Shown piece after piece: positions 8,181 through 52,660 of a DNA stretch of 64,000 nt; within the stretch, counting starts at the first letter, position 1, and every line of letters starts with the position of its first letter. The translations under genes were made by a program, and so were the position numbers. The stretch is from assembly GCA_021845645.1 (NCBI GenBank), contig JAJZVM010000018.1, positions 1 to 64,000 of the forward strand, read 5' to 3'. This DNA comes from Bacillota bacterium. Its GTDB lineage: Bacteria; Bacillota_E; JAJZYS01; JAJYTV01. The notes beneath the pieces were generated by a model. The model did not search any database. It was given only the letters and a program-made list of their open reading frames with translations, and was not told the DNA's origin.

Positions 8181-8336
8181 GGCCAGAGTGGATGTCCGCC
8201 GCCGGCACCGGTTGGTGCCTCTGCCTCGGCGGTGCTAAGGTGGAGCCCATGGAGCGCATGGCGCGGCGGCGGGTTCTCGGCCCCGAAGACCGGCCGGGAC
8301 GCCGCCTGCTTGGTCGCCGCAGGAGAGGAGTCTGAC

Positions 8337-9701
8337 ATGTCCGACGTCACCGTCATCGGCGGAGGGCTCGCGGGCAGCGAGGCCGCCTGGCAGCTGGCAG
8401 AGCGCGGCCACCGCGTGCGGCTCGTGGAAATGCGGCCGAGCCGCTCGACGCCCGCCCACCACACGGGGGAGTTCGCCGAACTCGTCTGCAGCAACACCTT
8501 CCGCTCCGACGCGATCGATCACCCGGTCGGACTGCTCAAGGAGGAAATGCGCCGCCTCGGCTCGATGATCATCGAGGTCGGGGAGCGCCGCCGCATTCCT
8601 GGCGGCACGGCCCTGACCCTGGACCGCGACGACTTCAGCGCCGACGTGAGCCGCAGGCTCACGGAGCACCCGCTGATCGAGGTGGTGCGCGAGGAGGCCG
8701 AGGGCATTCCCGAGGGGCCGACGATCATCGCCACGGGTCCCCTGACGTCCCCTGCCCTGCACGAGGCGATCGTCGCGTTCAGCGGGCAGGGCGAACTGGC
8801 GTACTGGGACGCCGCTTCGCCGATCGTGACAGAGGACTCGATCGACTGGTCCCGGGTCTACTTCGCGAGCCGCTACGGCAAGGGCGAGGCGGACGCCTTC
8901 GCGAACTGCCCGATGAGCGAGGAGGAGTACAGGGCCTTCTGGCGGGAACTCCGGTCGGCCGAGACCCACGAGCGCGAAGCCTTCGAGGACGAGCGCTACT
9001 TCGAGGCCTGCCTGCCGGTCGAGGTGCTGGCTGGGCGTGGCGAGGACACACTGCGCTTCGGTCCCCTGCGCCCTGTCGGCCTGCGCGACCCGAAGACGGG
9101 ACGGCCACCGTACGCCGTGCTGCAGCTCAGGCGCGAGAACGCCTCAGGGACCCTCTGGAACCTCGTCGGCTGCCAGACAGGCCTGCGCTTCCGCGAGCAG
9201 CAGCGCGTCTTCCGCATGATTCCCGCCCTGCGGGAGGCGGAGTTCGAGCGCTACGGCGTGATCCACCGCAACACCTTCCTGAAGAGCCCGGCGGTGCTTC
9301 TGCCGACCTTGCAGGCGCGCATGAGGCCGGACCTCTTCTTCGCCGGCCAGATCATCGGCAGCGAAGGGTACGTCGAGGCGGCCGCGGGCGGCCTTGTCGC
9401 GGGCATCAACCTCGGCCGCCTGCTGCGCGGCGAGGCGCCTCTCGTCTGGCCGGCCACCACCGCGATCGGCGGCCTCATGCGCTACGTCTCGGCCTCGGAT
9501 CCGGAAGGGTTCCAGCCGATGCACGTCGCCTTTGGCCAGATGGATCCGCTGCCCGATCCGCCCAGGCGCAAGGAGCGGCGCAAGGCCGAAATGGCCGAAC
9601 GCGCCCTGCGCGATCTCGCGAAGTTCGCTGAAGAGCGGGGTATCGAGCTTGGACCGGGTGCGGCGCGGTCTGCGGACGAGGGCGAGGAGGGGGCGCGATG
9701 A
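8337..9701 (+). CDS. trmFO: Folate- and FAD-dependent tRNA (uracil-54-C5) methyltransferase TrmFO
   Basis: 454 residues, full length for the family. It makes 5-methyluridine at position 54 of the tRNA T-loop using methylenetetrahydrofolate and FADH2. The FAD-binding motif is VIGGGLAGSEAAW at the N-terminus; ELVCSNTFRSD near residue 50 carries the cysteine linked to catalysis, and a second conserved cysteine lies in YFEACLPVE near 223. RPYGLRDP-like, IHRNTFL and GQIIGSEGYVEAAAGG blocks are also family landmarks. ATG 8337 has AGGAGAGGAG upstream. TrmFO is widespread in Bacillota, Cyanobacteria, some Proteobacteria and Thermus-group bacteria, so it is one clue to the host lineage. Its stop overlaps the next start (ATGATG), implying translational coupling to an unknown protein. 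Confidence 0.96.
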   Translation: MSDVTVIGGGLAGSEAAWQLAERGHRVRLVEMRPSRSTPAHHTGEFAELVCSNTFRSDAIDHPVGLLKEEMRRLGSMIIEVGERRRIPGGTALTLDRDDFSADVSRRLTEHPLIEVVREEAEGIPEGPTIIATGPLTSPALHEAIVAFSGQGELAYWDAASPIVTEDSIDWSRVYFASRYGKGEADAFANCPMSEEEYRAFWRELRSAETHEREAFEDERYFEACLPVEVLAGRGEDTLRFGPLRPVGLRDPKTGRPPYAVLQLRRENASGTLWNLVGCQTGLRFREQQRVFRMIPALREAEFERYGVIHRNTFLKSPAVLLPTLQARMRPDLFFAGQIIGSEGYVEAAAGGLVAGINLGRLLRGEAPLVWPATTAIGGLMRYVSASDPEGFQPMHVAFGQMDPLPDPPRRKERRKAEMAERALRDLAKFAEERGIELGPGAARSADEGEEGAR

Positions 9702-42195: not shown

Positions 42196-43563
42196 TCAGA
42201 TGCGGTCTTCGGCGGCCGCGATCTCGAGCGGCAGTCCCTTCGGTTCCGGCAGGGCGTAAATCGTGAGCAGCGCGCCGAGCAGCGACACGACGGCCAGGAT
42301 CGCCATCGTGCCCGCCAGCTGCAGGTGCAGCACGAGCAGTGGCATCAGGAAGGCCCCCAGGAACGCGCCGAACTTGGCGCTGCCGGCCGAGATGCCGTCG
42401 CCGAGTCCACGGATCTCCACGGGGAAGACCTCCGCCGGGAAGATGAACGTGGTGACGTTGGGGCCGAACTCGATGAAGAAGTAGCTGACCGCGTAGACGG
42501 CCAGGAAAACGATCGGCAGGGCGCGCACGGCCGGGATCAGGGCGATGACGCCGTAGGCGGCGGTCATCACGAGGAAGCCGCGCCACTGGATGCGCTTGCG
42601 GCCACTCTTGTCCACGCGGCGGACGGCGAGCCAGTAGCCTGGGACGGCGGCGACGAGGAAGATCAGCGCCGCGATCAGGGTCGAGAAAAGGAGCGAGGCG
42701 CCCGGCAGCAGGGCGCGCAGGATGATCTGCGACGAGACGCCGGTGCCATAGAACGCGATGTCCATCAGGAACCATGCGCCAGCCGTGCCGAGCAGGCGTT
42801 TGCGGTAGATCGGATCCGTGAGGCGCGCCTTGCGGCTGCGGCTCTGCACCGTCGCGTTCTGGAGGTCGATGCCGGCGACGTCGTGCACCACCTGCGCAGC
42901 CGACTGCGCCTCGCCGCGGACGGTGAGCGCGTAGCGAGGGGTCTCCTTGATGGTGCGGCGGAGGTAGATCACGGAGGCGGCGGGGATCGCGCCGATGGCC
43001 AGCATGAGGCGCCACGCGAGGTCGTGCGGCACGCCGGTGGCGAGGAGCAGCGCGGCCATGGCCGGTCCGGCGAGAAGGCCGAGCCCCTGCATCGAGAAGA
43101 CGGTGCCGATCATCTGGCCGCGGTTCGAGCGGTTTGCGTACTCGCTCGTGATGATCGCCGAGCCCGCGTAGTCGCCGCCGACGCCGAAGCCCACCAGGGC
43201 GCGGAACAGCATCAGCTGCCAGACCGTGTGCGAGAAGGCAGAGAAAACGGCACCGAGCGTCAGCAGAATGACCTCGATGCCGTAGATGCTCTTGCGCCCG
43301 AGAAGGTCCATCGCCCGGCCGAAGACGATGGCCCCCAGCATGGACGCCAGGAGGGACGTCGAGTTCAGCCACATCAGGTCCGTGGTGGATAGGTGCCAGA
43401 TCGGTGTCAGGATCGCGGTGACCGTGCCGATGATGAAGAGATCGTAGGCGTCTGTGAAGAAGCCCATGCCGGCGATGAGAACGGTGCGCCAATGGTAGCG
43501 CGAGAAATCTGCCTCGTCGAGCGCGTGGTACACCGACTGGATATCCGACGTCTCCGTCAGCAA
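42196..43563 (-). CDS. MFS transporter, phosphate:H+ symporter-like/sugar-porter superfamily
   Basis: 455 residues, 12 predicted helices. GMGFFTDAYDLFIIG near residue 32 and the GRAMDLLGRKSIYG loop (motif A) recall the PHS group, along with GVGGDYAGSAIITSEYANRSNRG, typical for that group. Proton-coupled uptake of phosphate or a related anion is the best guess. The start is TTG at 43563. It is divergent from the tusA region with a 490-base gap; a role in sulfur-compound transport is possible but unproven. Confidence 0.84.
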   Translation of the reverse strand: MLTETSDIQSVYHALDEADFSRYHWRTVLIAGMGFFTDAYDLFIIGTVTAILTPIWHLSTTDLMWLNSTSLLASMLGAIVFGRAMDLLGRKSIYGIEVILLTLGAVFSAFSHTVWQLMLFRALVGFGVGGDYAGSAIITSEYANRSNRGQMIGTVFSMQGLGLLAGPAMAALLLATGVPHDLAWRLMLAIGAIPAASVIYLRRTIKETPRYALTVRGEAQSAAQVVHDVAGIDLQNATVQSRSRKARLTDPIYRKRLLGTAGAWFLMDIAFYGTGVSSQIILRALLPGASLLFSTLIAALIFLVAAVPGYWLAVRRVDKSGRKRIQWRGFLVMTAAYGVIALIPAVRALPIVFLAVYAVSYFFIEFGPNVTTFIFPAEVFPVEIRGLGDGISAGSAKFGAFLGAFLMPLLVLHLQLAGTMAILAVVSLLGALLTIYALPEPKGLPLEIAAAEDRI

Positions 43564-44056: not shown

Positions 44057-44311
44057 ATGTCGGTTGTGGAACTGGCGACGCTGCAGGTCAGCAAGACGGT
44101 GGACGCGCGCGGAACTTCGTGCCCCGGTCCGATCCTGGCGGCCAAGAAGGGCATCGTGGACGTGAAGGTCGGGGAGATCATGATGGTCCTCGCCACCGAC
44201 AGCGGCACCAAGAAAGACCTGCCCGCCTGGGCCAAGAAGATGGGTCACGACTACCTCGGCGTCCTCGAGGAAGGCGGCATCTTCAAGCTCTACGTCAAGC
44301 GCCTCAAGTAA
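44057..44311 (+). CDS. tusA: TusA-family sulfur carrier protein
   Basis: 84 residues. The signature CPGPIL (Cys22 as persulfide carrier) sits in VDARGTSCPGPIL, and the C-terminal half has the expected DLPAWAKKMGH helix. TusA relays sulfane sulfur between proteins; in sulfur oxidisers it works with DsrE-type proteins and the Hdr-like complex. ATG 44057 is chosen for GGGAGG 9 bases before it; an in-frame TTG at 43997 is less likely. It opens the sulfur cluster, followed by a 283-base gap without a gene before the DsrE2-like gene. Confidence 0.92.
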   Translation: MSVVELATLQVSKTVDARGTSCPGPILAAKKGIVDVKVGEIMMVLATDSGTKKDLPAWAKKMGHDYLGVLEEGGIFKLYVKRLK

Positions 44312-44594
44312 GCTGATCGCTCGGTAGCTGCGCGAGCTGCCGCAAACGGACGACCCAACCTGCGAGCCAGAGCACGCGAGCGCCCGAAGAGGGCGCCGCG
44401 GGGCCCTGTGGGTTCCTCTACCCGCAAACGGCAGATGCGCAGGACGCGCAGCGTGCCCCGCAGCCCGGGAACCGTCACGCGCAGGGCAAGAAGGAAGAGG
44501 CGCGACGCATCTCGGGCGGGGCGCGCGATCCGGCTGGCCGGAACTTGCCTGCGTCAAGCCCTGGAAGGCTTGGTGCCAGAGGAGGCAATCGTCG

Positions 44595-45071
44595 ATGGAT
44601 ACCACCAAGAAGACCATCATCCTGTTCAGCGGGGATTTCGACAAGGCCCTCGCCGCGTTCATCATCGCGAATGGCGCAGCCGCGATGGGTGACGACGTGA
44701 CCATGTTCTTCACGTTCTGGGGTCTCAACGTCCTGCGCAAGTCGGTCGCGCCGCCGCACAAGAAGAGCTTTCTGCAGGGCATGTTCGGCGGCATGATGCC
44801 GAAGGGTCCGGGCAAGCTCGGGCTCTCCAAGATGAACTTCGCGGGCATCGGCCCCAAGCTGATGCGGCGGGTGATGCGCCAGCAGAACGTGAGCTCGCTG
44901 GAGGAACTGATCGCCACCGCCCGCGAGCAGGGGGTCAAGATGATCGCCTGCAAGATGTCGATGGACGTGCTCGGCCTGAGTGAGGACGAGTTGATCGACG
45001 GGCTCGATTACGTCGGCGTCGCCACGTACCTGGGCGAGGCGGACGAGGCCGGCGTCAACCTGTTCATCTGA
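44595..45071 (+). CDS. DsrE2-like sulfurtransferase (DsrE/DsrF/DrsH-like family)
   Basis: 158 residues. The fold features are KTIILFSGDFDKALAAFIIANGAAAMG, FFTFWGLNVLR and the C-terminal IACKMSMDVLGL with Cys119 as the likely sulfur-binding residue. A Gly/Met/Lys-rich loop (56-95) is typical of DsrE2. These proteins pass sulfane sulfur to and from TusA. GGAGGC precedes ATG 44595. Two strong hairpins separate it from the following redox genes. Confidence 0.9.
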   Translation: MDTTKKTIILFSGDFDKALAAFIIANGAAAMGDDVTMFFTFWGLNVLRKSVAPPHKKSFLQGMFGGMMPKGPGKLGLSKMNFAGIGPKLMRRVMRQQNVSSLEELIATAREQGVKMIACKMSMDVLGLSEDELIDGLDYVGVATYLGEADEAGVNLFI

Positions 45072-45081
45072 TGCATCCGGA

Positions 45082-45145
45082 GCCGACGCGGCGCCGCGTG
45101 GCGCCGCGTCGGCAGGATCCGCGGGCCGCCCGGCAGGCGGGCGGC
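45082..45145 (+). terminator. Two tandem hairpins between dsrE2-like and Hdr genes
   Basis: First: perfect 14-bp stem GCCGACGCGGCGCC / GGCGCCGCGTCGGC (45082-45113, GCGT loop). Second: 8-bp stem GCCGCCCG / CGGGCGGC (45125-45145). No T-run. They may terminate part of the transcripts or protect the upstream tusA-dsrE2 message. Confidence 0.55.
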
Positions 45146-45198
45146 ATTCCCAGACGCCCGGCATGACGAAAGGTCATCGACGGCAAGGAGGGCTTGAA

Positions 45199-45597
45199 GT
45201 GAGTCAATCGGCCACGACCCGCGTCCTCGTCTTCTCTACGAACAACATCTCCGACCCTGGCATCGACCTGGCCGGGAGCAGGCACCTGCACTACTCTCCC
45301 GGTGTCGTCGTGATCAGCCTGCCGTGCGCTAGCGGCATCAAGCCGAGCTGGATCGTCCACGCGCTCACCCACGGCTTCGACGGCGTCTTCATCGCCGCGG
45401 ACGGGGACGAGTGCGCCTACCTCACCGACTGCAGCAAGCGGTCCGCCGGCATCGCAGAGCAGGCGCAGGCCGAGCTCGTCGAACGCGGGCTATCGCCGAA
45501 CCGGGTGCGTCTCGCGGCCGTCTGCTCGGTCTGTGCCGAACCGTTCACCAAGCAGGTCACCGAATTCGTCGAGGATCTCTCGGAGGCGGTGGTATAG
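45199..45597 (+). CDS. MvhD/FlpD-like hydrogenase iron-sulfur subunit homologue
   Basis: 132 residues. It aligns by eye with the MvhD delta-subunit family: VVISLPCASGIKPSWIVHALTHGFDGVFIAADGDECAYL compares with the PCSGRVDPxxILxAxxxGADGVxVxGCxxGDCHY core (written here in outline). Cysteines are at 43, 72, 78, 109 and 112; the set differs from classic MvhD, so cluster type is uncertain. MvhD-like domains transfer electrons between an electron donor and HdrA, and form the C-terminal part of QmoB. GTG 45199 has AAGGAGGG 7 bases upstream. Its stop is directly followed by the next ATG. Confidence 0.82.
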   Translation: MSQSATTRVLVFSTNNISDPGIDLAGSRHLHYSPGVVVISLPCASGIKPSWIVHALTHGFDGVFIAADGDECAYLTDCSKRSAGIAEQAQAELVERGLSPNRVRLAAVCSVCAEPFTKQVTEFVEDLSEAVV

Positions 45598-48318
45598 ATG
45601 GACTACGACGTCCTGGTTGTCGGCAGCGGCATCGCGGGCATGGAGTCCGCGATCAAGCTCGGCGACATGGGCAAGAAGGTCCTGATGGTCGAGCGGGAAG
45701 GCAGTGTCGGCGGCCGCGTCATCCTGCTCAGCAAGGTCTTCCCGACCCTGGACTGCGCGAGTTGCATCACGACGCCGCGCATGGCGGCTTCGATCCACCA
45801 CGACAACATCACGCCCTGGACCTACACCGAGGTGGAAGCCATCCGGCGCAATCCGGACGGCACCTTCAAGGTCAAGGTGCAGCGCAAGGCACGCTACGTG
45901 GACGAGTCCGCCTGCACCGGCTGCCAGCTCTGCGAGCCCGCGTGCACCGTGGCGGTACCGGACGAGTTCAACTATGACCTCATCGCGCGCCGGGCCGCGT
46001 ACATCCCCTTCCCGCAGGCGGTGCCGAAGAAGGCCGTCATCCAGCGCGAGGGCACCTCGCCCTGCACGGACACCTGTCCCGCGGGCATCAAGGCCCACGG
46101 CTACGTCTCCCTGACCCGCAGCGGCAAGTACGAGGAGGCCTTCCAGCTCATCCTCGATGCCACGCCGCTGGTCGGCACGCTGGGGCGCGCCTGTTACGCG
46201 CCGTGCGAGGGCGAGTGCACGCGCGGGGACCTCGAGGGCACATTGCCGATCCGCCGGATCAAGCGCTTCGTCGCCGACCGGCACTACGCGAACTACGACG
46301 GACCGAACGTCACGCCCGACGAGCCCAACGGCAAGGCGGTGGCGATCGTCGGTTCCGGCCCCGCCGGCCTGACGGCGGCATGGCAGCTGGCCCGCAAGGG
46401 CTATCGCGTCAAGATCTTCGAGGCCGACAAGGAGCCGGGCGGCTTCCTGCGTTACGCCCTGCCGACCTACCGCCTGCCGCAGGAGGTCGTCGCGCAGGAC
46501 ATCGGCAACGTGACGGCGCTCGGGGTCGAGATCGCCGTGAACTCCCCGGTGCAGGACCTCGATGCCCTCAAGCTGGACGGCTTCGACGCGGTCCTGCTGG
46601 CGACGGGGACGCCCCTCTCGACCAGCATGGGCGTGCCGGGCGAGCAGTTGAAGGGCGTGCTCGGCGGCCTCGACTTCCTGCGCGACGTGCGCCACGGCGT
46701 GACGGCGGACATGCGGGGTAAGAAGGTCGTCATCGTCGGCGGCGGCAACGTGGCGATGGACGCCGCGCGCACCGCGCGCCGCCTGGGCGCCCAGGAGACC
46801 CTGGTCGCCTACCGGCGCGGGCGCGAGGAGATGCCGGCGCACAAGGCGGAAGTGGACGACGCCGAGGCCGAGGGCGTGAAGTTCCAGTTCCTCGTCGCTC
46901 CTGTGGAGGTCCTTGGGGACGCTTCCGGCAAGGTGACGGGCCTCAAGTGCCAGCGCATGGAGCTCGGACAGCCCGACGCGTCGGGCCGCCGCCGGCCACA
47001 GCCCGTCAAGGGCAGCGACTTCGTCATTCCGTGCGACGTGGTCGTGGCCGCGATCGGCATGTCGCCCGACACCGCGATGTTCACGCGCCTGCTCTCGCTG
47101 GGCGAAGGACGGCGCATCAAGGTCGACCCGAAGACCCTGCAGAGCGAGGTTTCCTACATCTTCGCGGCCGGCGACGTCGTCACCGGCCCGTCGGACATCA
47201 CGCAGGCCGTCGGACACGGCCGCCGCGCCGCCCACTTCATCGACCGCTGGCTGCAGGATCAGCCGATGGACGGCTTCTTCGCGCTCGACGACCGGCTCGA
47301 GGTGATCGACAAGGCCAAGGTCATGGCGCGCCAGAAGTCGTTCTCGCACCGGGACCCGGTCACGCTGAACCTCCAGCACGAGAAGGCGCCGCAGGACTTC
47401 CACGAGATCGAGCCGGCGCTGACGGAGGAGGAGGCCCTGAGAGGAGCCGGAAGCTGCCTCGACTGCGGCGTCTGCTCCGAGTGCGGCCAGTGCGTCGCGG
47501 TCTGTCCGCCGGACGCCATCCACCTGGACGCGAAGCCCGAGACCTTCGAGCTGGAGGTCGGGGCCGTCGTCCTGGCCACAGGCTTCCAGCTCTTCGACGC
47601 CGCCCTCAAGGAGGACTACGGCTTCGGCAAGTACCCCAACGTCATCACCGCGACGCAGATGGACCGCCAGCTCGCGCCGACGCGCCCGTTCAACAACATC
47701 CTGCGCCCGAGCGACGGCAGGGTGCCTGACCGCATCGCCTACGTCTCCTGCGTCGGCTCGCGCGACAAGACCGTCGGCAACCCGCTCTGCTCCAAGATCT
47801 GCTGCATGTACACCGCGAAGCAGAACCAGCTGATCATGGGCGCCCTGCCGCTCGCCGACGTCTCAGTCCACTACATGGACGTCCGCGCCGCCGGCAAGCG
47901 GTACGAGGAGTTCTACGAGCAGGCCAAGGCGATGGGCGCCAACTACATCAAGGGTCGCGTCTCCAAGATCACGGAACTCGAGAACGGCAACCTGATCCTG
48001 CGCTACGAGGACATCGACAACGGCGGCGCGATCACCGAGGCCGAGTACGATCTCGTGGTGCTCGCCGTCGGCGTGCAGCCGAACCACGAGGCCGAGAAGC
48101 TGTTCCCGGACGAGACCTTGCACCTCGACGACTTCTTCTTCGTCAACGAGCAGAACGACGACCTCAGCCCGGGCGAGACCAACCTGCCAGGCGTCTTCGT
48201 GGCCGGCGCGGCCTCAGGCGCCAAGGACATCGTGGACTCCATCCTGCATGCGGGATCCGCCGTGGCCCAAGCGGCGTCCCATCTCGAGAAGGCCAGCGCG
48301 AAGAAGGTGTCCGTATGA
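45598..48318 (+). CDS. HdrA-like flavoprotein with inserted GltD/NfnB-like NAD(P)H module
   Basis: 906 residues, much longer than plain HdrA/QmoA. In order: HdrA N-terminal FAD motif GSGIAG (8-13) and a [4Fe-4S] set Cys106-109-112-116; then a complete GltD/NfnB-type module with cluster cysteines 156, 160, 199, 203, 207, FAD motif GSGPAG (252-257), NAD(P)-binding GGGNVAMD (381-388) and FAAGDVVTGPSDITQAVGHG around 520-540; then a Cys-rich ferredoxin segment (620, 623, 626, 629, 632, 636); then the HdrA C-terminal half with CVGSRDK (718) and PLCSKICC (731-736). Two FAD, several clusters and an NAD(P)H site suggest electron transfer between NAD(P)H, the Hdr core and a third partner, perhaps by flavin bifurcation (inference). 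It starts one base after the MvhD-like stop and overlaps the next gene by 4 bases (ATGA). Confidence 0.9.
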   Translation: MDYDVLVVGSGIAGMESAIKLGDMGKKVLMVEREGSVGGRVILLSKVFPTLDCASCITTPRMAASIHHDNITPWTYTEVEAIRRNPDGTFKVKVQRKARYVDESACTGCQLCEPACTVAVPDEFNYDLIARRAAYIPFPQAVPKKAVIQREGTSPCTDTCPAGIKAHGYVSLTRSGKYEEAFQLILDATPLVGTLGRACYAPCEGECTRGDLEGTLPIRRIKRFVADRHYANYDGPNVTPDEPNGKAVAIVGSGPAGLTAAWQLARKGYRVKIFEADKEPGGFLRYALPTYRLPQEVVAQDIGNVTALGVEIAVNSPVQDLDALKLDGFDAVLLATGTPLSTSMGVPGEQLKGVLGGLDFLRDVRHGVTADMRGKKVVIVGGGNVAMDAARTARRLGAQETLVAYRRGREEMPAHKAEVDDAEAEGVKFQFLVAPVEVLGDASGKVTGLKCQRMELGQPDASGRRRPQPVKGSDFVIPCDVVVAAIGMSPDTAMFTRLLSLGEGRRIKVDPKTLQSEVSYIFAAGDVVTGPSDITQAVGHGRRAAHFIDRWLQDQPMDGFFALDDRLEVIDKAKVMARQKSFSHRDPVTLNLQHEKAPQDFHEIEPALTEEEALRGAGSCLDCGVCSECGQCVAVCPPDAIHLDAKPETFELEVGAVVLATGFQLFDAALKEDYGFGKYPNVITATQMDRQLAPTRPFNNILRPSDGRVPDRIAYVSCVGSRDKTVGNPLCSKICCMYTAKQNQLIMGALPLADVSVHYMDVRAAGKRYEEFYEQAKAMGANYIKGRVSKITELENGNLILRYEDIDNGGAITEAEYDLVVLAVGVQPNHEAEKLFPDETLHLDDFFFVNEQNDDLSPGETNLPGVFVAGAASGAKDIVDSILHAGSAVAQAASHLEKASAKKVSV

Positions 48319-50039
48319 GCGAGCGTCGCATCGGCGTCTTCATCTGCCACTGCGGCGGCAACATCTCCGACTATGTCGACGTGGCGGCCGTGCGGGACGC
48401 CATCAAGGACGAACCGGACGTCGTGGTGGCGGAGACGACGATCTTCGCCTGCGCCGACGCCACCCAGACCGACATGGTGCAGGCGATCAGGGACCACAAC
48501 CTCGACGGGCTCGTGGTGGCATCGTGCTCGCCGAAGCTGCACACCTTCACGTTCCGCGGCGTCTCCCGGCGCGCGGGCATGAACCCGTACCTGTACACGC
48601 AGGTCAACATCCGCGAGCAGAACTCGTGGGCGCACACCGACGACCACGAAGGCGCGACCCGCAAGGCGATCCAGCTCGTCAGGGCGGGCATCGCCAAGAC
48701 GCGCCTCTCGACGCCGCTCACGCCGCTCGAGGTGGAGACGACGCCGAAGACGCTCGTGATCGGCGGCGGCATCGCGGGCCTCAGGGCCGCCGTCGGCCTC
48801 GCGGACATCGGCCTCGGGGTCTTCCTGATCGAGAAGGAGCCGGAGATCGGCGGCTGGGTCAAGAAGTTCGGCACGATGTACCCGAGCGGCCGTCAGGGCG
48901 GCAAGCTGATCGACGAGCTGATCGAGGAAGTCCGGCGGCGGCCGGAGATCGTGGTCTTCACAAACGCCGAACTCGTCTCGAAGTCCGGCAGCTTCGGCAA
49001 CTACAAGGTCGAGATCAAGATCAGCGGCGAGAAGTCGATGGGCCTCGCGCTCGACGTCGGCTCGATCGTCGTCGCCACGGGCTTCGACACCTACCAGCCC
49101 GAGGTTGGCGAGTACGGCTACGGCATCGACGGGGTCGTCACCCTGCCGAAGTTCAAGCAGATGGTCGACAGCGCGAAGGGCGAACTCGTCTACCATGGCC
49201 GGCCCGTCAAGAACGTCGCCTACATCTACTGCGTCGGCAGCCGCCAGCCCGAAGGCAACGCCTACTGCTCCCGCTACTGCTGTGCCGCGACGGTCCACGC
49301 CTCGCTCGAGGTGGCGGACGTCGATCCCGGCATCCACCAGTACCACCTCTACCGGGACATCCGCACCTACGGCAAGTTCGAGCTCATGTACACGCAGTCG
49401 CGCGAGCGCGGCTCGGTCTACATGAAGTACCCCGAAGAGACGCCGCCTACGGTGACGCGCAGATCATCGGGCCAGCTCACGGTCACGACGCGCGACCTGC
49501 TGACGGGTGGCGAGGAGCTGGAGATCCCGGTCGACCTCGTCGTGCTCGTCACCGGCATGGTGCCGCGCAAGAACGAGAAGCTCACGAACGCCCTCAAGCT
49601 GCCTGTCGGCAGCGACGGGTTCTACAACGAGATCCACCCGAAGCTCCGTCCGGTCGAGACCGTCGTCGACGGCGTCATGATCGCCGGCGCCTGCCAGGGG
49701 CCGAAGAGCTCGTACGAGAGCGTCGCGTCAGGCCTCGCGGCCGTGACGCAGAGCGCGACGATGCTCAAGAAGGGCGTCGCGGAGCTCGACCCGATGGTTG
49801 CGCAGGTGACGCCGGAGTCCTGCACGATGTGCGGACTCTGCGAGGAGACCTGTCCCTACGACGCCGTCAGCCGGACCGAGTACGAGGGTCACGAAGTGGC
49901 CCAGATCGACGCGGCGGTCTGCAAGGGCTGCGGTGGCTGCGCCCCGGTCTGCCCCGAAGACGCCATCGACCTCAGGGGCTACACCGACGCGCAGATCCGG
50001 GCCATGATCGAGAACCTGGCGGAGGTGCCTGTCGTATGA
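48315..50039 (+). CDS. HdrA/QmoA-like heterodisulfide reductase subunit A homologue
   Basis: 574 residues. N-terminal HdrA domain with ICHCGGN (10-16) and ASCSPKLHTFTF, FAD motif GGGIAG (150-155), IYCVGSRQ, and two C-terminal [4Fe-4S] motifs: Cys503-506-509-513 and Cys536-539-542-546. This is a plain HdrA, the flavin and cluster hub of Hdr-type complexes. Cytoplasmic. It overlaps both neighbours by 4 bases (ATGA), so all are made in step. With the fused HdrA upstream and the membrane HdrC-like gene downstream the order resembles qmoA-qmoB-qmoC. Electron direction cannot be read from sequence. Confidence 0.92.
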   Translation: MSERRIGVFICHCGGNISDYVDVAAVRDAIKDEPDVVVAETTIFACADATQTDMVQAIRDHNLDGLVVASCSPKLHTFTFRGVSRRAGMNPYLYTQVNIREQNSWAHTDDHEGATRKAIQLVRAGIAKTRLSTPLTPLEVETTPKTLVIGGGIAGLRAAVGLADIGLGVFLIEKEPEIGGWVKKFGTMYPSGRQGGKLIDELIEEVRRRPEIVVFTNAELVSKSGSFGNYKVEIKISGEKSMGLALDVGSIVVATGFDTYQPEVGEYGYGIDGVVTLPKFKQMVDSAKGELVYHGRPVKNVAYIYCVGSRQPEGNAYCSRYCCAATVHASLEVADVDPGIHQYHLYRDIRTYGKFELMYTQSRERGSVYMKYPEETPPTVTRRSSGQLTVTTRDLLTGGEELEIPVDLVVLVTGMVPRKNEKLTNALKLPVGSDGFYNEIHPKLRPVETVVDGVMIAGACQGPKSSYESVASGLAAVTQSATMLKKGVAELDPMVAQVTPESCTMCGLCEETCPYDAVSRTEYEGHEVAQIDAAVCKGCGGCAPVCPEDAIDLRGYTDAQIRAMIENLAEVPVV

Positions 50040-50290
50040 GCCGCACGACGCCCCGAGACGTTCGGGAGGTCATCCGCGAGGAGCCTCTGATGCACCGGCC
50101 CATCCTCGAGGCGGTGGCGGCGGGGCCCATGACCGTGCCCCAGATCGCGGAGGCGATCGGCCGTCCGCCGCGCGAGGTGCTCTACTGGGTGATGGGGATG
50201 CGCCGCTACGGCAAGCTGGTGACCTCGGCGGATCCCGACGACGATGGCTACTACACGTTCACCGCGGTGGACGGGGGGGTGCCCTCATGA
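50036..50290 (+). CDS. Small winged-helix-like protein within the Hdr/Qmo operon
   Basis: 84 residues. The middle (about 20-62) reads like a winged helix: RPILEAVAAGPMTVPQIAEA, then IGRPPREVLYWVMGMRRYGKLV, followed by a hairpin DDDGYYTF. It has no cysteine, so it is not an electron carrier. It overlaps both neighbours by 4 bases (ATGA), showing it is translated together with the redox subunits. It may be a DNA-binding regulator of the operon or have been recruited as a structural subunit or assembly factor. I know of no named family for it. Confidence 0.75.
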   Translation: MSRTTPRDVREVIREEPLMHRPILEAVAAGPMTVPQIAEAIGRPPREVLYWVMGMRRYGKLVTSADPDDDGYYTFTAVDGGVPS

Positions 50291-51459
50291 GTTCTCTGGT
50301 CGACGCGAGTCTCCTGACCGACATCAAGAAGTTCGGTGCGGCCGACGTCTCGGCGTGCTTCAGCTGCGGCAACTGCACCGCGATCTGCCCGCTCTCCACC
50401 AACGACGGGGCGTTTCCGCGCCGCATGATCCGCTATGCCCAGGTGGGCATGAAAGACGCCCTGCTTTCGAGCAAGGAGCTCTGGACCTGCTACCACTGCG
50501 GGCTCTGCTCCGACACCTGCCCGACGCAGGCCGATCCCGGGGGCTTCATGGCGGCGGCGCGCCGCTACGCCATCGCGAGCTACGACCGCACGCACCTCGC
50601 CTGGACGATGTACACGCGGCCCGTGCTGGCGTCCCTGATCGCGATCGTGCTGGCCGTCTTCTTCGCGGTGTTCATGTACGCGTCGCACGGCGCCCAGAGC
50701 CGGACCTCGATGGCGCTCTTCGGCTTCATCCCCGAGCCCCTGATCCACTACACCGGGCTTGTGGTCATGGTGATCGCCTTCCTGGCGGGTCTCGCCGGCA
50801 TCATCACGATGGTGCGCGGTATCTCGCGACGCGAGGTCAAGCTGCGCGGCAAGAGCCGGGTCACCGGCTGGAAGGCGCTCTGGTCCGCCATCGGCGTCGA
50901 GTCGATCGGGCAGAAGCGCTACCGCCAGGACTGCTCGGCCGTGCAGGAAGTGAAACCCTGGTACCGCCGCCGCTGGCTCGTCCACTCCCTGACCATGTGG
51001 GGATTCCTCGGCCTGCTCGTCGCGACCGTGGTCGACTACGGCCTCAGCCTGATCGGCGTCAAGATGCCGGGAACCCCTGTGGCGATCTGGTACCCGACGC
51101 GCCTGCTGGGCACCCTCGCCGGTCTCGCGATGATCTACGGCGTGACGATGTTCTTCATCGACCGGGTGCGCAAGGATAACCAGTCCGCGAAGAACTCGGA
51201 GCCGGCCGACTGGATGCTGCTCGTCCTGCTCTGGGTGGTGGGTGTGAGCGGCTTCCTGATCGAGATCTCCCTCTACCTGCCCCAGCCGCCCGCCTGGGGC
51301 TACTGGCTCTTCCTCTTCCATGTCTCCGTGGCCATGGAGCTCATCCTGCTCGCGCCATTCATGAAGTTCGCCCACGCCATCTACCGTCCGGTGGCCCTCT
51401 ACTATCTGGCGCGCGCCGGAGAGACGGAGGGCATGGCCGGGGAGAGCGCGGCCGACTGA
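50287..51459 (+). CDS. QmoC-like membrane protein (HdrC ferredoxin domain fused to membrane anchor)
   Basis: 390 residues. N-terminal HdrC-type domain with two [4Fe-4S] motifs Cys24-27-30-34 and Cys68-71-74-78. From about residue 108 onward there are six transmembrane helices (near 110-130, 148-170, 228-250, 272-292, 312-332, 338-360) with His residues (LIHYTGL, WLVHSLTMWG, FLFHVSVAMEL) that could hold haem b, as in QmoC/HdrE. This should anchor the complex and exchange electrons with quinone. No HdrB (CCG-domain) gene is nearby. It ends the ATGA-linked run of four genes. Confidence 0.9.
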   Translation: MSSLVDASLLTDIKKFGAADVSACFSCGNCTAICPLSTNDGAFPRRMIRYAQVGMKDALLSSKELWTCYHCGLCSDTCPTQADPGGFMAAARRYAIASYDRTHLAWTMYTRPVLASLIAIVLAVFFAVFMYASHGAQSRTSMALFGFIPEPLIHYTGLVVMVIAFLAGLAGIITMVRGISRREVKLRGKSRVTGWKALWSAIGVESIGQKRYRQDCSAVQEVKPWYRRRWLVHSLTMWGFLGLLVATVVDYGLSLIGVKMPGTPVAIWYPTRLLGTLAGLAMIYGVTMFFIDRVRKDNQSAKNSEPADWMLLVLLWVVGVSGFLIEISLYLPQPPAWGYWLFLFHVSVAMELILLAPFMKFAHAIYRPVALYYLARAGETEGMAGESAAD

Positions 51460-51494
51460 ACGAAGCGGACCGAGAAGGCCTTCGGGAACCACGA

Positions 51495-51521
51495 GGCGGG
51501 GGCCGAGCGAGCGCCCCCGCC
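51495..51521 (+). terminator. Hairpin after qmoC-like gene
   Basis: Perfect 9-bp stem GGCGGGGGC / GCCCCCGCC with a 9-base loop, 35 bases after the stop, followed by TTGCCTATC. Likely ends or attenuates the main redox transcript before the DsrE genes. Confidence 0.55.
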
Positions 51522-51569
51522 TTGCCTATCGGGCCGTGTGGAGGAGTGTGGCGGGAAGGAAGCGATCCT

Positions 51570-52004
51570 GTGGCAAGGATGGTCATCGGCATCGGGAACG
51601 GAGCGCCGGAGCAGCTGGTGCTTTCCGCAGCGCTGGCCACGAAGGCGGTGGAGATCGGTCTCGACGTGGACATCTTCCTCTTCCAGGGCGGCATGGGCGC
51701 GTTCCGCGACCGCGGCGTCCGCAGGCACCCGCTCGCCAACTCCGCGGAGGTACCGGACCCGTTGCAGGGGTTCGCGCGACTTCACGCGACCGGCAAGGCC
51801 AGGATCCACGCCTGCCCTACGGAAGGCGGCAGGGCGCGCGCGCGACTCAAGGACTTCTCGCCGCTCGTCGACGACGTGGTGGGTCTCGGCAGCTACGTGG
51901 ACAGTTCGGAAGGGCCTGGGGTGCTGCACGCCTACTTCGGGCCGTGCGCCGAGGAGAAGGCGCAGGAACCAGAGCCACGCAAGCCGACGCTTCAGGTCCT
52001 CTAG
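51570..52004 (+). CDS. DsrE-family protein 1
   Basis: 144 residues with MVIGIGNGAPEQLVLSAALATKAVEIG, VDIFLFQGGMGAFR and ARIHACPTEGG, where Cys82 is at the position of the sulfur-binding residue of DsrE/TusD-type proteins. A second cysteine lies near the C-terminus (GPCAEEK). GTG 51570 is the likely start (AAGGA 10 bases upstream); ATG 51579 is possible. It is paralogous to the protein at 52247, and both probably hand sulfane sulfur between TusA, DsrE2 and the Hdr complex. Confidence 0.84.
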   Translation: MARMVIGIGNGAPEQLVLSAALATKAVEIGLDVDIFLFQGGMGAFRDRGVRRHPLANSAEVPDPLQGFARLHATGKARIHACPTEGGRARARLKDFSPLVDDVVGLGSYVDSSEGPGVLHAYFGPCAEEKAQEPEPRKPTLQVL

Positions 52005-52246
52005 CCGGGAGGTCCCTCCGCGATAGGCCTGATCCCGCAGCCGGCGGCATACGCTGCGATGGCGCAAGAGCGTGCCGGCTCGGCGGCGGGGAGGACCAGA
52101 CGGGCCGCCTTCGCCTCTTGGCCAGCGCAGGGAGCGGACGCGCACAGTCCGACGTGCACTTGTTCATCCGATCACTAGTGCTCCCTGACGCAGTGGCTCC
52201 GCCCCGATCCAACAGGGGTCGGGATGACACGAAGGGAGGACCCGAT

Positions 52247-52660
52247 ATGTCCAAGATGGTCGTCGGCATGGCGAGCGGCAGCGTCGAGAAGCTCATCGTC
52301 GCCAGCACCATGATCGGGGGGGCGGTGGCGCTCGACACGGAGGTGGACGTCTACCTGCTGCTCGGCGGCGCGCGCGCCTTCCGCAAGGACGTGGCGGGTA
52401 CCGACAGGATGGTCCACGACTATCCCCAGCTGCGGGCGGAGATGGAGGCCGGGCTCAAGGCGAACCAGATCCCGGACCCGTACGGGTTCCTGCGTCAGCT
52501 CAAGGCGGACGGCCGCTTGCACATCCACGTCTGCGCCACCGCGGGCAAGATCTGGGGCGCGACGGCGCTCGAGGACTTTGTCGACCTGGTCGACGACATC
52601 GTCGGCATCGGGGAGTATGTGATCAAGTCGGGCGAAGCCGACAGCGTGCAGGTACTCTGA
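52247..52660 (+). CDS. DsrE-family protein 2
   Basis: 137 residues, clearly related to the preceding gene: MVVGMASGSVEKLIVASTMIGGAVALD, VDVYLLLGGARAFR and LHIHVCATAGKIWG with Cys96. The C-terminal DFVDLVDDIVGIGEYV is alike in both. AAGGGAGGA lies 6 bases before ATG 52247. The 242-base gap before it (52005-52246) shows nothing I can name. A pair of DsrE paralogues could form a mixed oligomer like DsrEF. A terminator hairpin follows. Confidence 0.86.
   Translation: MSKMVVGMASGSVEKLIVASTMIGGAVALDTEVDVYLLLGGARAFRKDVAGTDRMVHDYPQLRAEMEAGLKANQIPDPYGFLRQLKADGRLHIHVCATAGKIWGATALEDFVDLVDDIVGIGEYVIKSGEADSVQVL

Follow-up and report, generated by a model that had tools for sequence, protein, structure and literature searches.

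The window, a stretch of 64,000 nucleotides (contig JAJZVM010000018.1 of the Bacillota assembly GCA_021845645.1), carries at positions 44057–52660 nine co-directional genes of the + strand: tusA, dsrE2, mvhD, a fused hdrA, hdrA, a gene for a small winged-helix-like protein of 84 amino acids (aa), qmoC, and two dsrE-like genes (Table 1). An earlier note, made from the sequence alone, had listed these genes and a high GC content, and both descriptions hold: all nine genes are in place on the + strand, and G+C is 66–73%. The tightly coupled core consists of mvhD, the fused hdrA, hdrA, the small winged-helix-like gene, and qmoC, joined by three overlaps of 4 bases and one abutting junction (translational coupling). 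The other four junctions, those of tusA, dsrE2, and the two dsrE-like genes, are gaps of 119–283 bases, hence the genes are "mostly overlapping", as the note had put it, only from mvhD to qmoC. Where mvhD starts is uncertain: its first ATG lies at 45163, and the likely start codon is a GTG at 45199.

Table 1. Genes of the operon and the divergent neighboring gene (window coordinates).
Feature	Position	Strand	Evidence
TusA sulfur carrier, CPGP motif, 84 aa	44057..44311	+	PF01206, E 1.6e-21
DsrE2-family protein, 158 aa	44595..45071	+	PF13686, E 1e-63; NCBIfam DsrE2 95.6 bits, below the 210-bit cut-off
MvhD/FlpD-like protein	45199..45597	+	PF02662, E 6.2e-26
HdrA/QmoA-like flavoprotein with inserted GltD-type NAD(P)H module, 906 aa	45598..48318	+	Pfam/NCBIfam and alignment
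HdrA (QmoB-like without the MvhD domain), 574 aa	48315..50039	+	Best solved match HdrA 5odc_A, E 1.3e-115
Small winged-helix-like protein, 84 aa	50036..50290	+	Weak helix-turn-helix (HTH) families across members
QmoC-like membrane protein, 390 aa	50287..51459	+	NCBIfam qmoC 205 bits, below the 300-bit cut-off
DsrE-like protein a, 141 aa	51579..52004	+	PF02635 only E 0.29, below cut-off; 35–36% identity with DsrE-like protein b
DsrE-like protein b, 137 aa	52247..52660	+	PF02635 E 0.0091, below cut-off
Divergent MFS transporter	42196..43563	-	PF00083; adjoins the operon in 6/12 relatives' loci examined; operon membership not claimed

Spread and conservation of the gene set

Screening of named genomes with an alignment of 20 sequences yielded at least 573 stretches that encode a relative, of which the best 80 loci were analyzed; these were chosen by similarity to the window and lean to its kin, and the account of the GltD insert covers them, not the other 493. 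The 80 loci are labelled Bacillota, Chloroflexota, Actinomycetota, Acidobacteriota, Armatimonadota, Aminicenantes, Dormibacterota, Zixibacteria, LCP-89, and "Deltaproteobacteria", the last assigned to Myxococcota in the taxonomy behind the oxidase comparison below. Carriers include the actinobacteria Cellulomonas and Actinotalea, and, among cultured organisms, Actinotalea lenta SYSU T00b441 (QmoC form, L045) and Desulfofundulus thermobenzoicus DSM 14055 (HdrB form, L064); the nearest genome (G001) has the operon with identical proteins (99.8% for HdrA). Core content and order are conserved in the 70 scorable loci, and the only gene families common to many of the 80 loci are those of this set. 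The gene set is real and widely shared among bacteria, not an oddity of one genome. A plasmid-borne system was considered and rejected, as none of 181 matching plasmid records covers 80% of the fusion.

TusA is present in 77/80 loci, and tusA lies upstream and co-directional in 77/80, being kept with both outlet forms described below. Its residues C22, P23, and P25 are each conserved to 95% or more across the 52 rows aligned (here and below, conservation counts exclude rows of unusual length). DsrE2 is found in 73/80 loci at E 1e-10 and in 68/80 at E 1e-15; it has no hydrophobic segment at the threshold used, and C119 is seen in 60/60 aligned rows. C96 of DsrE-like protein b is present in 12/12 aligned rows.

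Both ends of the 906-aa protein match HdrA or QmoA, and its middle matches GltD/NfnB-type proteins. Alignment to seven apr-linked QmoA places the GltD-type insert at about residues 151–611, between two Fe–S motifs, with QmoA aligning unbroken on either side. The first CxxC (C53, C56) is as in methanogen HdrA, whereas the seven apr-linked QmoA have PxxC; the HdrA CxxC and the Fe–S motifs of the methanogen-type bifurcating Hdr are thus present in the system. The 574-aa HdrA aligns to apr-linked QmoB, and the MvhD profile matches the C-terminal part of 8/8 apr-linked QmoB (E 1.5e-12 to 8.9e-20); therefore, we regard the set as a Qmo-like one in which QmoB is divided over two proteins. MvhD (78/80 loci) has five invariant Cys in 41 rows. 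The second HdrA is present in 77/80 loci, the remaining three running off their contigs. Since the fusion protein, too, is matched by the HdrA profile, and the profiles of QmoC and HdrC cross-match in their Fe–S part, HdrA and HdrC were recounted, and the outlet forms were assigned from the gene content of each locus.

In the HdrA tree, the fused HdrA forms one clade (support 100/99) and the second HdrA another (100/100), both apart from apr-linked QmoA and QmoB; the tree holds 18 of 78 fused and 18 of 58 second HdrA rows drawn at random, plus those of the window, with seven QmoA and eight QmoB. A tree of both HdrA had been proposed in the earlier note as a check on its claim of a distinct system, rather than an ordinary Qmo beside unrelated DsrE genes; the separate clades, together with the linkage to TusA and DsrE2, bear this claim out.

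Two outlet forms on a constant core

The QmoC-like protein has two [4Fe-4S] motifs and six hydrophobic segments by hydropathy. Its eight Fe–S Cys, C216, H233, H345, and H363 are invariant in 41 rows; C24, C68, C216, H233, H345, and H363 are common to 5/5 apr-linked QmoC, H134 and H154 are not. The conserved histidines are of the haem type, in agreement with the QmoC-like membrane HdrC that the note had recognized here. In the other form, an HdrC of 100 aa and an HdrB of 320–340 aa stand in place of QmoC, with a fused protein about 62% identical to that of the window; an HdrC match follows the small protein in 30/30 such loci, and the one HdrB copy scanned has one CCG domain. Of the 80 loci, QmoC occurs in 40 and HdrB in 30, with no locus combining the two; the remaining 10 are truncated or ambiguous. 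The lack of HdrB, which the note had pointed out for this locus, was accordingly rejected as a defining trait: 30 of the 70 scorable loci carry HdrC and HdrB instead of QmoC.

Statements on the window's family refer to ten family genomes, four of them only 76–82% complete. QmoC is found in eight, HdrB in six, and both in four; QmoC without the system's HdrB is seen in G006, G008, G009, and G010 (99, 96, 95, and 82% complete). The distribution of outlets over the fused-protein tree (79 rows: fusion ORFs, i.e., open reading frames, longer than 850 aa, plus that of the window) needs five changes, at least four of them on starred branches. The QmoC-form locus L017 of genome G008 has a decayed C-terminal piece of HdrB (8181–8441) just before dsrE2 and a decayed DsrE piece (9055–9162) just after it; this is the 3' order of the HdrB form, hence the remnants look like a trace of exchange between the outlet forms. 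The only HdrB-profile match in a QmoC-form locus (L028, 22.8 bits) is on the G008 contig with the decayed remnant.

The QmoC tree, also among the checks proposed earlier, comprises a main clade (33 rows), a smaller lineage of seven rows that groups with one apr-linked QmoC, and one lone row; given its long branches the joins are unsure. As a side observation, stretch L105 (6688–12885) from the genome (G086) of the Desulfofundulus thermosubterraneus locus L063 carries apr-linked QmoA, QmoB, an HdrB/HdrC-like protein, and QmoC together, and this QmoC is near the minor lineage of the system's QmoC.

The inserted module of the window's fused HdrA has the motif YRR at residues 405–407. Among the 79 rows, 59 have YRR, ten CLE, eight SLE, and two another motif; YRR is present in 38/41 QmoC-form rows vs. 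15/30 HdrB-form rows. We also note that 15 of the 18 CLE/SLE rows belong to the HdrB form. According to the available text of PMC7596348, the YRR residues hold the phosphate of NADP(H) in NfnB, and in DsrL this motif accompanies NADP(H) use and marks the NADP(H)-using DsrL-2. Because of YRR in the inserted module, NADP(H) is a likely third partner of the complex, which together with the motif was absent from the earlier account. The (C/S)LE type of the fused HdrA resembles the NAD(H) type of DsrL-1, and a replacement of YRR by CLE or SLE is possibly a switch from NADP(H) to NAD(H).

The small protein is found in 70/70 scorable loci (E at most 3.9e-28), its gene lying after the fusion gene and before those of QmoC or HdrB, and its residues E11, R14, and W51 are invariant in 68 rows. 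The window's copy has no Pfam or NCBIfam match at E 1e-3. Across the members, family matches are to weak HTH types; database names of relatives, where given, are MarR-type, DprA-type, or hypothetical. Against solved structures the profile matches 8vd6_A (CAP REPEAT) with E 3.3e-5, no stretch passing on its own, and all other matches have E 0.034 or worse, several being winged-helix regulators; such weak profile matches are the basis of the provisional name "winged helix". The protein is kept through the outlet exchange and lies inside the coupled block, which speaks for a subunit or activator, with a DNA-binding regulator as the less favored possibility. In a sample of the window's phylum it is patchy (4/299 genomes). 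DsrD, a small winged-helix activator of DsrAB, is a possible analogue; a literature search on it returned no matching paper.

Genome context and possible function

Co-occurrence was analyzed in 60 carriers, that is, in the genomes of 50 of the 80 loci and in the ten family genomes. The gene dsrA is over cut-off in 13/60, with no match of any kind in the family genomes (dsrB was not searched separately). The gene aprA is over cut-off in 15/60 and in none of the family genomes, eight of which have weak matches below it; soxB is over cut-off in 0/60, with weaker matches in 16, none of them in the family. For these markers, the whole-genome check suggested by the note finds all ten family genomes without a dsrA match, aprA over cut-off, or a soxB match. 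As to HdrB and LbpA, the HdrB form is present in 6/10 family genomes, and G009, along with its QmoC form, has a separate group of genes (L114, G009:C32), read as an sHdr-type cluster, in which TusA lies together with CCG proteins of Hdr type and a pair of GcvH/LbpA-like proteins. In G007 there is a second full GcvH-type match; other CCG proteins of the family genomes are of 240–300, 400–550, and about 650 aa.

Near the operon of the window, the observation that HdrB, LbpA, Apr, Sat, and Dsr are missing stands for the 15 flanking ORFs covered by the Pfam scan (beyond the operon, the search for Apr, Sat, and Dsr in the window was limited to these). Two GcvH/LbpA-like queries, both from G009, gave nothing in the window better than E 0.27 and no ORF in the 80 loci at E 1e-3; these queries lack cysteine in the stretches printed, unlike most LbpA in the accessible part of PMC6067878.

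Heme-copper oxidase family proteins (PF00115) are found in 36/60 carriers and in 10/10 family genomes, the only match in G001 being low-scoring (167 bits). They are present in 21/26 QmoC-form genomes vs. 4/20 HdrB-form genomes (Fisher p 6.7e-5, uncorrected for kinship; the four outlet-unscored genomes of the 50 were excluded).

Other neighbors within about 10 kb include type III sulfide:quinone reductase (SQR) in L087 (18178–19419, adjoining the operon and over the cut-off of the selenoprotein-subtype model), SQR-like genes in four further loci (one scanned, below cut-off), and rhodanese-like genes in 7/80. A CsoR/CstR-type repressor adjoins the operon in 8/80 loci (L052, L055, L062, L064, L065, L067, L073, and L098; PF02583 in the one scanned) and is at most 1.8 kb from the fusion gene in seven of the eight. 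In L052 and L055 the region of its second Cys is without the His typical of copper sensors, a feature that would be compatible with persulfide sensing. The divergent MFS transporter of the window is nearest to phosphate:H+ symporter models, below their cut-off, and adjoins both outlet forms in the window's family; upstream of it is a secreted-repeat lipoprotein gene (PF03640, 41446–42141).

The reading that we favor, and would rate only slightly below probable, is that of an Hdr/Qmo-type complex serving TusA/DsrE2-bound sulfur, linked to NADP(H), and provided with an exchangeable outlet, in which the likeliest flow of electrons is from sulfane sulfur to quinone and NADP+. The gene products presumably form one physical complex. 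TusA and DsrE2 would carry the sulfur; the core, constant across the forms, would consist of both HdrA flavoproteins together with MvhD and the small winged-helix-like protein; and the GltD-type module of the first HdrA would exchange electrons with NADP(H). The outlet may be viewed as a plug-in: QmoC, in the form of the window, would connect to menaquinone, the quinone partner being suggested by homology, and HdrC–HdrB, in the other form, would act on a soluble disulfide. As the carriers stay when HdrB is absent, the step touching carrier-bound sulfur is probably in the core, not at HdrB. In the window's family, sulfane sulfur bound to protein would be the likeliest net source of electrons, with the quinone pool and NADP+ as their acceptors, a direction that we infer, with the reductive one as a close rival.

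Several observations weigh against this account. The QmoC-form operon has neither HdrB nor LbpA as a site to act on sulfur; DsrE2 was not found within 8 kb in 7/80 loci, some of these being cut off; and only a minority of the loci have the sulfur-related neighbors. The model PF00115 extends to further members of its superfamily, and a kinship-aware test of the oxidase association has only four independent pairs (on average, 2.4 agreeing and 0.2 opposing) and is not significant. Finally, the YRR-type DsrL-2 is linked to the reductive direction, being tied to sulfite reduction in the available text of PMC7596348, which argues against an oxidative reading.

The same signature speaks for the complex running reductively: NADPH (plus quinol) would reduce TusA/DsrE2-bound persulfide, or a disulfide, to yield sulfide or to keep the carriers reduced, and HdrA may couple this, by bifurcation, to the reduction of ferredoxin. 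In addition, the HdrB form is found in sulfate reducers and in other genomes without PF00115 over cut-off (16/20), and the first HdrA keeps the methanogen-type CxxC, as opposed to PxxC in the seven apr-linked QmoA; however, the outlet in the form of the window is of the quinone type, and PF00115 proteins are present in all ten family genomes, while SQR and rhodanese neighbors fit either direction. Taken as a whole, we consider this alternative rather unlikely, if far from negligible. A still weaker candidate, which we regard as improbable, is a general NADPH:quinone (or NADPH:disulfide) balancing device, with the carriers serving cofactor synthesis or stress sensing. It would suit carriers such as Cellulomonas and Actinotalea, neither of which is to our knowledge a sulfur oxidizer, and the OsmC and CsoR-type genes sometimes seen near the operon, but not the upstream, co-directional position of tusA in 77/80 loci, kept with both outlet forms.

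TusA, DsrE-type carriers, and Hdr proteins are shared with the sHdr sulfur-oxidation pathway, with which LbpA is inevitably associated, as stated in the accessible part of PMC6067878. A variant of this pathway is very improbable and was rejected on the lack of LbpA-like ORFs in the 80 loci; in addition, the HdrB copy scanned from the second form has a single CCG domain, and G009 keeps its sHdr-type cluster separately. Least credible is an ordinary Qmo complex that merely adjoins sulfur-carrier genes. Counterparts of QmoA, the split QmoB, and QmoC are all present, the QmoC ligands match, and one minor QmoC lineage groups with apr-linked QmoC, but aprA is not over cut-off in 45/60 carriers, the ten family genomes among them, and this explanation was rejected on the HdrA tree and on the linkage to TusA and DsrE2.

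On a broader scale, the system may add to sHdr and Qmo/Dsr a third route of Hdr type by which carrier-bound sulfur is handled: a core built on the HdrA pair and linked to NAD(P)H, accompanied by TusA/DsrE2 and by the small winged-helix-like protein as a subunit, spread over about ten phylum-level labels, whose outlet was repeatedly exchanged between quinone (QmoC) and soluble disulfide (HdrCB) to suit aerobic or anaerobic life. We put this forward as possible, somewhat short of probable. If true, many actinobacteria, Chloroflexota, Bacillota, and others without Dsr/Sox markers hold an overlooked sulfur-electron pathway, and the mutually exclusive outlets, to quinone or to disulfide, on a core that stays the same would offer a natural experiment on Hdr-type electron routing. 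The fused HdrA and the small protein are marker genes for the system, usable in cultured carriers.

Comparison with known systems

No description of the gene set was found in the open-access literature searched, a search that excluded subscription papers and supplements; in particular, the parts available of PMC4378227, PMC5114278, PMC6776052, PMC12998232, PMC13293266, and PMC8528874 contain no description of it. The system is neither an ordinary Qmo nor sHdr. With sHdr it shares Hdr proteins accompanied by TusA and DsrE-type carriers, but it differs in the LbpA-like ORFs, found in none of the 80 loci, and in the operon having no two-CCG HdrB; the sHdr gene set HdrC1B1A with HdrC2B2 is absent from the 80 loci, where HdrB occurs only in the second form. 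The YTD cluster and the DsrEFH type II group likewise have tusA with dsrE-type genes; here, there is an Hdr core instead, and the neighbors in the 80 loci include no further widely shared family, in a comparison that used no model of the YedE/YeeE transporter which adjoins tusA–dsrE there.

DsrL and NfnB resemble the system in the GltD-type module with YRR, or with (C/S)LE in 18/79 rows, but the module is here inside an HdrA/QmoA protein, and dsrA is not over cut-off in 47/60 carriers. The methanogen HdrABC–MvhAGD has in common with it HdrA with CxxC, HdrC, and HdrB-type and MvhD parts; unlike the methanogen complex, the system has no MvhA or MvhG among the widely shared genes, its HdrB has one CCG domain, and its HdrA carries the GltD insert.

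Closest in architecture are the Qmo complexes. With QmoABC, the quinone-interacting membrane-bound oxidoreductase, the system shares the QmoA frame, the content of QmoB (here HdrA and a separate MvhD), and a QmoC whose main ligands agree; it differs in the GltD insert, the split QmoB, TusA/DsrE2, the small protein, and the separate HdrA clades, and AprAB, the partner of QmoABC, is represented by aprA over cut-off in only a quarter of the carriers (15/60). In the QmoAB–HdrBC of Gram-positive sulfate reducers, as far as the available text of PMC4148979 goes, HdrBC replaces QmoC as the outlet, similar to the second form, but the partner there is AprAB, as opposed to TusA/DsrE2 and an NADP(H)-type module here. 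Type II Qmo, in the accessible part of PMC10504309, is also HdrA-like and partly without Apr/Dsr, and may overlap with the system described here.

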